Source: a virus. Taken from it: DNA of 24,254 nucleotides. The stretch is from positions 1 to 24,254 of IMG/VR virus record IMGVR_UViG_3300034061_002257, one strand, 5' to 3'. The position numbers were made by a program, and so were the translations under genes. Positions 20,510 to 23,314 of the stretch are shown here, piece after piece (position 1 is the first letter of the stretch; every line of letters starts with the position of its first letter). The notes below the pieces were generated by a model. It was given only the letters and a program-made list of their open reading frames with translations. It had not been told where the DNA came from and made no database searches.

Positions 20510-20944
20510 ATGGCTTATAAAAATAAATTTTTCCCTAAAAATCAATCAAAATATATAGGTGATTCTACAAAAATACTATGTAGATCCTTATGGGAACGTA
20601 AATTCTGTAAATATTTAGATGAAAATAAAAATATTTTACGCTGGTCGTTTGAAAATATTAAAATTCCATATAAATCCCCTTTAGATAATCAAATGCATTT
20701 TTATATACCAGATTTTCTGGCAGAAAAAAGAAATAAAGATGGATCTATATCTACTCTACTTATAGAAGTAAAGCCATTCAAACAAACAAAACAGCCAGTA
20801 ATGACAGAAGCCATGTCAAAGAAAACGTACTCAAAAAATATGGAAACTTTTTTGGTCAATCAAGCAAAATGGGAAGCAGCCAAAGATTTTTGTGAAAAAA
20901 ATGATATTAATTTCATAATTCTCACAGAAAAGGAACTCCTATGA
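20510..20944 (+). CDS. 4: head completion nuclease-like protein gp4
   Basis: This 144-aa protein is close to T4 gp4 (150 aa) in length and pattern: KYIGDSTKILCRSLWERKF (14-32), RWSFENIKIPYKSP (44-57), then YIPDFL (65-70) and TLLIEVKPFKQTKQP (82-96), ending in INFIILTEKELL. The D68 and E86-x-K88 spacing is that of a PD-(D/E)xK nuclease core. gp4 (also called gp50) completes DNA-filled heads before tail joining, and related proteins are placed in the endonuclease-like group. The ATG at 20510 is preferred to a TTG three bases earlier. There is no Shine-Dalgarno. The stop overlaps the next start as ATGA, implying coupled translation. Confidence 0.92.
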   Translation: MAYKNKFFPKNQSKYIGDSTKILCRSLWERKFCKYLDENKNILRWSFENIKIPYKSPLDNQMHFYIPDFLAEKRNKDGSISTLLIEVKPFKQTKQPVMTEAMSKKTYSKNMETFLVNQAKWEAAKDFCEKNDINFIILTEKELL

Positions 20945-21528
20945 TACCAGATCCAGAATTACCAGAAGATTTTATCGCTGGTTCAATAAATGAATTTAGA
21001 AGCAGTGTAGTAAATAGAGGTGGTGTTCAATTTGCCAATAGATATATTGTTGATTTTGTCACACCATTTGGATCTTACACTACATATCCATCTGAAATAA
21101 ATATACCCCAAAGAGCTTTACTGACATACGAAACTGGTATGCCAACATCACTTTGGGGGACGAAAAGAAAAATTCCACTTCAGCACGAATTTGATGAAAT
21201 AACAATGTCTTTTGTATTATATGAAGATTTTGCTGAGAAAAACTTCTTTGATGCTTGGATGGATAATATCGTAAGACGTGGCAACTACAGTGAATGGGTC
21301 ATTGAAAATGCAAACACCTATTTTGATTATGTTGGTAAAGTTTATATCACTACTTTCTCTGGATCTTCCCAAGCAACAGAATATAGTGGAATAACATCAA
21401 AAACTTTATTAGATGAAGCATATCCTTTAAATTTATTACCAATACAAATGTCATCAGAAAATACAGGATACACAACATTTGTTATGACTTTGGCTTATAG
21501 AAATTCTTATAATTTATTGAATGGATAA
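20941..21528 (+). CDS. tail-tube-fold protein (gp19/gp54-like)
   Basis: This 195-aa protein has the layout of T4 gp19-type tube subunits: FANRYIVDFVTPFG (31-44), an IPQRALLTYETGMPTSLWGT loop (55-74), then FDEITMSFVLYEDFAEKNFF (84-103) with AWMDNIV, and a final strand pair reading YPLNLLPIQMS then TTFVMTLAYRNSY. T4 gp19 is 163 aa and gp54 is 320 aa; the length here is nearer gp19. The genome's main tube gene would normally sit beside gp18, which is not in the window, so this is more probably a baseplate-proximal tube initiator or a second tube paralog. AAAGGA lies about 9 bases before the ATG, inside gp4. A SGITS element near residue 149 is unlike gp19. Confidence 0.6.
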   Translation: MIPDPELPEDFIAGSINEFRSSVVNRGGVQFANRYIVDFVTPFGSYTTYPSEINIPQRALLTYETGMPTSLWGTKRKIPLQHEFDEITMSFVLYEDFAEKNFFDAWMDNIVRRGNYSEWVIENANTYFDYVGKVYITTFSGSSQATEYSGITSKTLLDEAYPLNLLPIQMSSENTGYTTFVMTLAYRNSYNLLNG

Positions 21529-21532
21529 TTAA

Positions 21533-22219
21533 ATGAACTTAAAAAATATTTTACATGATTCTTTACCAACCTATATCACTACATTGCCATATAGTAAAGT
21601 AAAAACTAAATTTAGACCTTTTTTAGTAAAAGAAGAAAAGAAATTATTAATACTAGAAGAAACATCGAATAAAAAAGAAATTTATAATGGTATTGTAGAA
21701 GTATTAAATTCTTGTTATGAAAATATCGACTTTTCAAAAATACCAATTTTTGAAGTTGAATATTGTTTTTTAAAGTTACGAGCTAAATCTGTAGGTGAAA
21801 TCATTACGCCTAAAATCACATGCCCTGTTACCAAAGAAAATCATGTTATTGAAATTGATTTAAATAAATTAGAATTAAATATACCAAAACAAGACAATAT
21901 AATAGCTGTTGGTAAAAATTTAAAAATTAAATTAAAATATCCAACAGTAAATGATATATCAGAATTATCTAAAAACATTAATGATTTAATTGCTAATTGC
22001 ATTGTTTATTTTGAAACACCTGATGAGAAAGCAGAAGCATCAAATTTTTCCAAAGAAGAAATTATAGATTTTTTAGATCATTTAACTGTAGAATATTATC
22101 AAAAGATACTTGAATTTTTTGAAAATATGCCATCATCACCAATCACCGTAAATTATACGACACAAGATGGAGTTCAAAGATCCCTAGTGCTAAAAAACCT
22201 TAAAGATTTTTTTTCATAA
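21533..22219 (+). CDS. 26: baseplate hub protein gp26
   Basis: This 228-aa protein is a clear gp26 relative (T4 208 aa). The N-terminal TLPYSKVKTKFRPFLVKEEK (17-36) and LLILEE are the best-preserved part of the family. YCFLKLRAKSVGEIITPKIT (77-96) follows, with Cys97, and the C-terminal half is helical. gp26 is needed for hub assembly in T4. Its end is unusual: the last codons contain eight consecutive T (22207-22214), in phase for a -1 slip, two codons before the stop, and a perfect 9-bp long-range stem begins at the stop codon. A slip would extend the protein through the tiny ORF downstream by about 58 residues. Spacing to the previous gene is 4 bases, with only a weak Shine-Dalgarno. Confidence 0.87.
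   Translation: MNLKNILHDSLPTYITTLPYSKVKTKFRPFLVKEEKKLLILEETSNKKEIYNGIVEVLNSCYENIDFSKIPIFEVEYCFLKLRAKSVGEIITPKITCPVTKENHVIEIDLNKLELNIPKQDNIIAVGKNLKIKLKYPTVNDISELSKNINDLIANCIVYFETPDEKAEASNFSKEEIIDFLDHLTVEYYQKILEFFENMPSSPITVNYTTQDGVQRSLVLKNLKDFFS
22207..22213 (+). promoter_or_regulatory. candidate -1 programmed frameshift heptamer at the end of gp26
   Basis: In the gp26 frame the sequence reads T TTT TTT, fitting the X XXY YYZ slippery form, with TCA TAA following. A -1 slip gives TTC ATA ACC and continues open for 58 codons to 22386. A stem begins 5 bases after the heptamer. Frameshifts of this kind between two tail-assembly genes are known in lambda (G/GT) and many other tailed phages. Here it is inferred from sequence only. 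Confidence 0.5.
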
Positions 22220-22352
22220 CCCTCAGTCACATATCACTAAAAAGCTATTTTGAATTAATGTATATTTTAACAAAAAATTATGGATTCAATTTAGCAGATC
22301 TGGAAGGAATGCTTCCTTGGGAAAGAGACTTGTATGTGGAGCAACTGAGGGT
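22219..22352 (+). other. 9-bp perfect long-range inverted repeat downstream of the slippery site
   Basis: ACCCTCAGT at 22219-22227 is the exact reverse complement of ACTGAGGGT at 22344-22352. The intervening 116 bases would form the loop of an RNA stem. The left arm starts five bases past the T_TTT_TTT heptamer and the right arm lies inside the tiny ORF. The arms are GC-richer than their surroundings. It could stimulate frameshifting or hide the ORF's own start. Confidence 0.5.
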
Positions 22353-22386
22353 AGATGTGGAAAAAGAAAAGAGTAAATTCAGATGA
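22258..22386 (+). CDS. tiny ORF in gp51 position; possible frameshift extension of gp26
   Basis: The product is 42 aa if started at ATG 22258, with the core NYGFNLADLEGMLPWERDLY (7-26) and then a charged helix. The reading frame is open from 22204 in the -1 frame relative to gp26. No Shine-Dalgarno precedes the ATG. The stop overlaps the next start as ATGA. The short 'G-F-x-L-x-x-hydrophobic-x-P-W-x-R' shape followed by an acidic/basic helix recalls the small downstream partners of tail-assembly chaperones. In T4, gene 51 follows gene 26, so this may be a reduced gp51; sequence similarity to gp51 was not verifiable. Either an independent coupled gene or only a C-terminal extension of gp26 is possible. 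Confidence 0.6.
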   Translation: MYILTKNYGFNLADLEGMLPWERDLYVEQLRVDVEKEKSKFR

Positions 22387-23279
22387 AATTACAAAAATCT
22401 AAAAATAAAGTACCACAAGAATTAAAAGATAAAATCAAAAATTTAATTGATGGTTTTTCTATAGAAACTATGGAAAAAACTGATATAAATTCAGAAAATT
22501 ATAAAGCTCCAGAAAAAGAACCAGAATTAGTAAAAACAGAACCTGGTTTAAATTTAGGTTCTATAAAAAAAGAACTCATAGCACCAATAACAAATATTAT
22601 TAATGAAAAATTAAAAAATATTTCATTTCATAATAATAAAAATGTAAACTACCCAACAACAGATAACTATTTTAATTCTGTAAATAAAGAATATAAAAAT
22701 TTTTCAACAAATTCGACAGAACAAAAAACAAGTAAATATTTAAATATTGATTATAAAAATTTATTTTCACCATCACAAGAAACACAAAAAAATATTTCTA
22801 ATAAATTTTATGATAATAAAACAAATATTAAAAATTTAACACAGACAACAAATTTAATACCAGCTTTGAAAGAGGGTGGTGTTGTTAAAGAACCAACCGT
22901 TGCTTATTTACATGAAAATGAAGCTGTAGTTCCTTTAAAAGAATCTAAAACATTTCAAAACTTTATACAGACTCTAACAAAGGGTTCTTTAGTTAATAAT
23001 ACAAAAAACGAAAGTATTAAGAATGTTTCTAGTATGAGGAACAATACAACTAATATTGAGAATAAGACTTCTGTTGAAAATAAAAATATAACAAACAAAT
23101 CTCAAAAAGAACAACCAATATCATTGAATGCTCCTATTAGTATTAATCAGCAATTATCAGGATCTCCGTCTGGTATGAATAAACCAAATCTACCACTTGT
23201 ATATGCTGGTTCTGGATCAAATGGTGATCTATTCTCAAATTCAGTGAATAAACCAAAGTGGAGAAAGAATACTGGATAA
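22383..23279 (+). CDS. short protein with tape-measure-like motif
   Basis: This 298-aa protein is very rich in Asn, Lys, Ser and Thr. Residues 164-185 read EGGVVKEPTVAYLHENEAVV then PL, the 'EGG.V..PT.A.LGE.E.VVPL' motif common near the C-terminal parts of phage tape-measure proteins. Elsewhere I recognise no domain. The N-terminal 80 residues include likely helices (PQELKDKIKNLIDGF, SIKKELIAPITNIINEKLKN). T4 gp29 is 590 aa, so this is about half the length, yet it sits directly after the gp26/gp51-like pair, the same position tape-measure genes hold after lambda G/GT. It may be a tape-measure remnant or a hub protein. It starts within the tiny ORF's stop (ATGA) with AAGAG about 9 bases upstream, and is followed by a strong terminator. 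Confidence 0.55.
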   Translation: MKLQKSKNKVPQELKDKIKNLIDGFSIETMEKTDINSENYKAPEKEPELVKTEPGLNLGSIKKELIAPITNIINEKLKNISFHNNKNVNYPTTDNYFNSVNKEYKNFSTNSTEQKTSKYLNIDYKNLFSPSQETQKNISNKFYDNKTNIKNLTQTTNLIPALKEGGVVKEPTVAYLHENEAVVPLKESKTFQNFIQTLTKGSLVNNTKNESIKNVSSMRNNTTNIENKTSVENKNITNKSQKEQPISLNAPISINQQLSGSPSGMNKPNLPLVYAGSGSNGDLFSNSVNKPKWRKNTG

Positions 23280-23282
23280 TTG

Positions 23283-23314
23283 AAAACCCCCTCGTTTGAG
23301 GGGGTTTCTTTTTT
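23283..23314 (+). terminator. rho-independent hairpin terminator between convergent genes
   Basis: AAACCCCCTC at 23284-23293 pairs perfectly with GAGGGGGTTT at 23298-23307 around a GTTT loop, followed by C and six T (23309-23314). It lies 4 bases after the rightward stop, and the T-tract runs into the leftward gp32 stop at 23313-23315. On the minus strand the hairpin is followed by TTTTCAATT, so it may also stop gp32 transcripts, more weakly. Confidence 0.9.

Follow-up and report, generated by a model that had tools for sequence, protein, structure and literature searches.

A conserved slippery heptamer and a covarying long-range RNA stem point to frameshifted tail assembly chaperones gp26 and gp26-51 in a T4-like phage

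Main reading and gene neighbourhood

gp26 and a gp26-51 fusion are very likely the short and long tail assembly chaperones (TACs) of a T4-like phage, produced by programmed −1 frameshifting at U UUU UUU; judging from sequence, we put the probability of this reading at roughly 0.9. Long-tailed phages mostly depend on a short and a long protein of this kind to assemble their tails. The reading draws on the conservation of the heptamer, selection on the −1 frame ahead of the candidate ATG of gp51, a covarying RNA stem and T4, in which one gene encodes the whole fusion. Most ribosomes would halt at the UAA at 22217 and release gp26 alone (228 aa), and a low-frequency −1 shift, in which two Phe-tRNAs slip in tandem into frame −1, would yield the gp26-gp51 fusion of 284 aa. 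Slippage would be promoted by the stem, the 5′ arm of which lies 5 nt downstream and its partner ~100–120 nt further, within the gp51 frame. If the pair works like lambda gpG/gpGT (PMC5009743), the shared gp26 part would coat the tape-measure protein, with many gp26 molecules per fusion, and the tail tube subunit would be brought in by the gp51 part.

The window, i.e., the whole stretch of DNA that was analysed, is a 24,254-base linear viral record from a T4-like phage. Its minus strand carries genes for the baseplate and hub. The plus strand holds a gene for head closure and, further, the tail-tube-like gene, gp26, the tiny frame of gp51 and the tape-measure-like gene (Table 1). The start ATG of the last of these (22383–23279) overlaps the stop of the −1 frame (ATGA). 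The original prediction had placed a tape-measure-like gene here, which phrog matches and variable length favour, but the 298-aa gene itself is only weakly tape-measure-like. Among close relatives with a similar N-terminus, the gene following gp51 ranges from 298–316 aa (the window, L016) to >943 aa (L022:3857-6685), and the long version in L022 contains Asn/Ser-rich repeats. Such swings in length with a kept N-terminus fit a tape measure or another length-variable protein. In Caulobacter phage Cr30, the annotated tape measure is found one small gene further downstream.

Three further observations concern the remainder of the window. A strong bidirectional terminator-like hairpin (23284–23307) separates the convergent tape-measure-like gene and gp32. 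On the minus strand, a large virion-type protein (352–2646) contains an alpha/beta-hydrolase-like stretch (ILFSHGNG ... GGHSRGGGVA), which is odd for a tail or fibre protein, and a fragmentary ORF at the left end (2–331, also on the minus strand) encodes collagen-like Gly-X-Y repeats (GPAGPQGITGPTGNPGYGPTGPTGP).

Table 1. Coordinates of the features at the gp26-gp51 junction and of the flanking genes in the window
Feature	Positions	Strand	Evidence or remark
Tail-tube-like gene, 5′ of gp26	20941..21528	+	phrog_45 tail tube 1e-14; PF23849 8e-4
gp26, candidate short tail assembly chaperone form (TAC-N), 228 aa	21533..22219	+	PF12322 1e-49; phrog_150 3e-52
Slippery heptamer T TTT TTT (inside T8 run 22207-22214)	22207..22213	+	gp26 phase
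gp26 zero-frame stop TAA	22217..22219	+	
−1 reading frame, C-terminal (TAC-C, 'gp51') domain, 57 residues + stop	22213..22386	+	phrog_634 3e-14
Helix 1, 5′ arm (ACCCTCAGT), 5 nt past heptamer	22219..22227	+	compensatory C-G to G-C and A-U to U-A in relatives
Helix 2, 5′ arm (CACATAT), continues helix 1	22228..22234	+	alignment of relatives
Candidate ATG for free-standing gp51	22258..22260	+	no SD; ATG at that codon in 14/135 distinct relatives only
Helix 2, 3′ arm (GTATGTG; first G in G-U pair with 22234)	22332..22338	+	
Helix 1, 3′ arm (ACTGAGGGT), in codons CTG AGG	22344..22352	+	
Tape-measure-like gene, 298 aa, 3′ of gp51 frame	22383..23279	+	weak phrog tape-measure matches, 7e-6 to 1e-3

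Slippery heptamer

The 3′ end of gp26 reads ...AAA GAT TTT TTT TCA TAA. The predicted heptamer T TTT TTT is present in the gp26 phase at 22207–22213; one sense codon (TCA) lies between it and the TAA at 22217–22219, a slight correction of the earlier placement two codons before the stop. We compared 184 related loci from phage records and IMG/VR, of which 135 were distinct and which formed 37 clusters below 80% identity. When this set was checked for relatives that have the same gene pair and no slippery run, T TTT TT(T/C) was found in the correct phase, with gp51 in frame −1, in 184/184 loci; T4, which lacks the run, has a separate fusion gene. The −1 relation of gp51 to gp26 held in all 183 loci in which gp26 could be placed. 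The residue preceding the two Phe residues is variable (S, D, A, N, G, T), yet the codon for it invariably has T as its third base, and TTT is the first Phe codon of the heptamer in every related locus. Based on the own codon usage of the 37 clusters, and with kinship handled by clustering alone, the chance of such conservation is ~2e-13; computed with the codon usage of the genes themselves, it comes to ~1e-13 or less. The heptamer is also retained in GC-richer phages, e.g., Stenotrophomonas DLP_6 (L006) and L101, and in-frame T TTT TTY occurs only twice in the 7,865 codons of the window. The review PMC5009743 places U UUU UUU below A AAA AAG in strength as a shift site in E. coli.

Fusion mRNAs could also arise without any ribosomal slip, if RNA polymerase added or dropped bases in the T run, and the T8 of the window would in principle be sufficient for polymerase slippage. 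However, in 90 of the 135 distinct relatives the run consists of T6 followed by C and always reads T TTT TTC, never TTT TTT C, which argues that codon phase matters. Moreover, a stem 4–10 nt downstream and a Shine-Dalgarno (SD)-like element ~10 nt upstream (see below) suit ribosomes, not polymerase. We consider transcriptional slippage highly improbable and regard the heptamer as a putative site of ribosomal frameshifting.

Reading frame −1 and the start of gp51

Frame −1 has a stop at 22201–22203 and is open from 22204, through the tiny ORF as predicted, up to the TGA at 22384–22386. Thus, a −1 shift could succeed only at or beside the T run, within ~15 nt. The resulting fusion would comprise 227 + 57 = 284 aa with the junction ...KDFF-F-ITLSH... 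For the 57-residue −1 peptide, matches were obtained to phrog_634 (baseplate hub assembly catalyst) and to 471 phage records; among the matches listed, the homology begins at residue 1 or 2, ~14 codons ahead of the ATG at 22258. Between the heptamer and 22258, 56% of the changes separating the window from eleven relatives are synonymous in frame −1, compared with 21% expected, and 7% and 25% are synonymous in the other two frames. By this comparison, the −1 frame upstream of ATG 22258 is under purifying selection.

These data bear on the possibility that gp51 is a separate small protein, initiated at ATG 22258 or by re-initiation after the gp26 stop, and that no fusion is made. An in-frame ATG does exist, and public records list gp51 as a gene of its own, with various starts. 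However, an SD sequence is missing ahead of 22258, as the original prediction had it, just 14 of the 135 relatives have ATG at this codon, and the 14 codons preceding it are conserved as protein. Frame −1 lacks any ATG, GTG or TTG before the conserved part in 34 of the 135 junctions and 9 of the 37 clusters. T4, in addition, retains the whole fusion as a single gene, and independent initiation would leave the invariant heptamer unexplained. There is hardly any chance, in our judgement, that this explanation holds, and the frameshifted fusion is the reading we follow. An additional, separately initiated gp51 may be made in 24 of the 37 clusters, because some in-frame ATG precedes the conserved part there. 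We rejected an ancestral gp51 that was coupled to gp26 through an ATGA stop-start overlap, since relatives do not have ATG as codon 2 of the −1 peptide.

Public annotations (L001, L003–L008) place the start of gp51 inconsistently, between 2 and ~75 bases past the gp26 stop. The inconsistency would be explained if the real N-terminal part of gp51 is the frameshift junction; the gp51 start would then be wrong in many public annotations.

RNA stem downstream of the heptamer

A perfect 9-bp stem had been proposed between 22219–22227 and 22344–22352. The two arms are indeed fully complementary and the spacer to the heptamer is 5 nt, but the 9 bp turned out to be part of a larger structure, a 16-bp long-range stem that pairs 22219–22234 with 22332–22338 and 22344–22352. 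Synonymous-codon randomisation yielded a 9-bp Watson-Crick stem at such spacing in 0.96% of cases. With CACATAT/GTATGTG included, the folding energy of the window sequence (L010) lies 4–6 standard deviations under synonymous nulls (p<1/300), with z-scores of −4.1 against synonymous-codon permutations and −5.7 against codon-usage sampling. CTG and AGG, the codons that hold the 3′ arm of helix 1, are rare in the window (19 of 652 Leu and 6 of 207 Arg codons, each ~3% of its family).

Inspection of the two arms in relatives, which the original prediction had named as a check, revealed compensatory changes: four stem pairs are altered on both sides, among them a C-G to G-C change in four sequences. 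In ten relatives of the window type, 95% of the cells of the long-range stem are paired, compared with 23–49% for slid-partner controls, and covariation amounts to 0.178 vs 0.088 after shuffling (0/500). RNAalifold, unaided, predicted nearly the same long-range stem. Searches against Rfam gave no match to a frameshift family and only a chance hit at 0.86. With its 5-nt spacer, covariation and excess stability, the stem has the properties of the RNA structure expected ~5–9 nt downstream of a −1 frameshift site.

Variation of the stem and an upstream element among relatives

The stem is not present in the same form throughout the family; in other relatives the 5′ arm has another partner or a hairpin forms locally. 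Alternative pairings connect CCCTCTC with GGGAGAGGG in the WERE codons (Mosig, Melnitz, L031, L048) or, in L100, CCTCCGC with GCGGAGG, and a nearby hairpin is found in S-SSM7, S-PM2, Cr30, DLP_6 and L017. Compared with synonymous-codon permutations, the folding-energy z-score is negative in 37/37 clusters (mean −2.2). A few of the 37 clusters, e.g., L117, L120 and L184, showed no significant excess structure, so not every member of the family has the stem. In 23 of the 37 clusters, against 11.7 expected, a helix of ≥6 bp starts 4–10 nt past the heptamer. We also compared the pairing of the segment following the heptamer with the downstream sequence of its own phage and of other phages, a test that needs no fixed structure. 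Pairing was better with the phage's own sequence, with z-scores of −7.2 for distant and up to −6.3 for local pairing; strong values were confined to left segments starting at ~h+6 to h+24. That local and distant forms have their 5′ arm in common, at a fixed place, makes frameshift stimulation the probable function.

Alternatively, the frameshift could be real and the long-range stem could serve another purpose, such as stabilising the mRNA or controlling the gene downstream. Its 3′ arm sits 31–51 nt upstream of the next gene's ATG, and structure alone is silent on function. Against this stands the observation that the 3′ arm lies in other codons or nearby in relatives, and the 5′ arm stays just past the heptamer. 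We regard another purpose as unlikely and prefer frameshift stimulation.

Most relatives additionally carry GAGG or GGAGG ending ~10 nt upstream of the heptamer, within conserved Glu-Gly codons. The Glu codon at this Glu-Gly site is GAG rather than GAA in a ratio of 18 to 5, compared with 249 to 625 elsewhere in gp26 (p 1e-6). In dnaX, an SD-like sequence at a distance of ~10 nt is known to stimulate −1 shifting. The window lineage lacks the SD-like GAGG (region 22183–22206) and has AAAAAACC in its place; this loss may mean lower frameshifting or a heavier dependence on the stem. It appears probable that T4-like phages outside the T4 group use a three-part device consisting of the SD-like GAGG, T TTT TTY and a stem, in which the 5′ arm remained fixed and the 3′ partner took up at least three positions (in the QLR codons, in the WERE codons or in a hairpin close by), the long-range form spanning ~85–120 nt inside coding sequence, and that the window lineage, having lost the SD-like part, depends on its long-range stem.

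Predicted structure of gp26

The AlphaFold model of gp26 is confident, with a pLDDT of 89.7. When residues 1–97 of the model were ranked by realignment, the top match was 2ob9, the HK97 tail assembly chaperone (Z 7.7), followed by 3fgx (6.8) and 3klu (YqbN; 6.5), and the next entry scored 5.0. We take all three to be tail-chaperone-type phage proteins. Foldseek alone gave no significant PDB match for the model (E>1), and TACs came out on top only after realignment. The gp26 sequence profile searched against solved structures retrieved only weak, chance-like matches to BRR2, and the NCBIfam search yielded nothing above the cut-off. With Z below 8, the model is moderate evidence that the N-terminal part of gp26 adopts a TAC fold. 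The arrangement typical of a TAC pair, in which a short protein also occurs with a fused C-terminal extension, was found both by the frame analysis and in the T4 gp51 fusion. Structure ranking, the likely gene order and the T4 fusion support the assignment of gp26/gp51 as a TAC pair, as suggested in the original prediction and, in the same sense, in a publication of 2022.

Comparison with known systems

For T4-like phages, both frameshifting and the TAC assignment have precedents in print. Vladimirov et al. 2022, whose work we know from papers citing it, are credited with the gp26/gp51 TAC pair and its poly-T frameshift signals in T4-like phages (PMC10885494, PMC12846349), the signal being located in the TAC-N genes (PMC12846349); some T4-like phages have one short and one long fused TAC gene instead (PMC10885494). 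The system described there and the one in the window share the gene family and the combination of a short TAC-N with a long TAC-NC. In the open-access literature, to which the search was confined, we found no description of a covarying stem with a moving partner or of an SD-like element upstream of the heptamer, nor of any RNA structure that stimulates TAC frameshifting in the T4-like group. As far as Vladimirov et al. 2022 can be judged from the papers citing it, the stem looks new. Our contribution consists of a relative that is uncultured, a count of how widely the heptamer is conserved, and two RNA features, the covarying stem and the SD-like element ahead of the heptamer.

According to Sullivan et al. 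2010, the cyanophage-type short gp51 has ~20% of the length of T4 gp51 and lacks its first ~200 residues. Frameshifting would explain this puzzling short gp51 of cyanophages and their relatives, as gp26 would supply the missing ~200 residues. The covarying stem with its moving partner, moreover, provides a natural series in which distant RNA pairing in bacterial frameshifting can be tested.

T4 itself has the baseplate hub assembly proteins gp26 and gp51 in two separate genes, which are divergent, on opposite strands and without a slippery run (the 3′ end of gene 26 is TTC TTT, not slippery). What is alike is the domain content. T4 gp51 (249 aa) matches phrog_150, the gp26 family, over its full length and, in its C-terminal part, phrog_634. 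PF12322 is present in both T4 gp26 and T4 gp51, and the two proteins align directly; T4 gp51 is therefore a gp26-like part and the short gp51 part fused in one gene. The abstract of Vladimirov et al. 2022 reportedly states that frameshifting was retained in several T4-like groups and that T4 uses genes 26 and 51.

The analogy with G/GT of phage lambda, drawn in the original prediction, is supported by the likely gene order, by the natural fusion in T4 gp51 and by the likeness of gp26 to the HK97 chaperone. The slippery sequence of lambda is GGGAAAG and differs from the T TTT TTY found here, and the two systems were compared by layout. The lambda genes lie near those for the tail tube and tape measure and yield a short product and a rarer −1 fusion (PMC5009743); the window would have the same products, next to a tail-tube-like and a weakly tape-measure-like gene; in lambda, the G and GT products are both absent from the virion (PMC5009743).

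Poly-T sites at the 3′ end of TAC-N, followed by an open −1 frame, also occur in the TAC genes of Vandenendeviridae and Andersonviridae, which are other phage families and have GTTTTT rather than T TTT TTY (PMC12846349).

With regard to the arrangement of signals, most relatives of the window share the three-element layout of E. coli dnaX. There, a heptamer is combined with an SD-like element ~10 nt upstream and a stem downstream. The heptamer of dnaX is A AAA AAG and its stem a local hairpin, whereas the window lacks the SD-like element and its stem is long-range.
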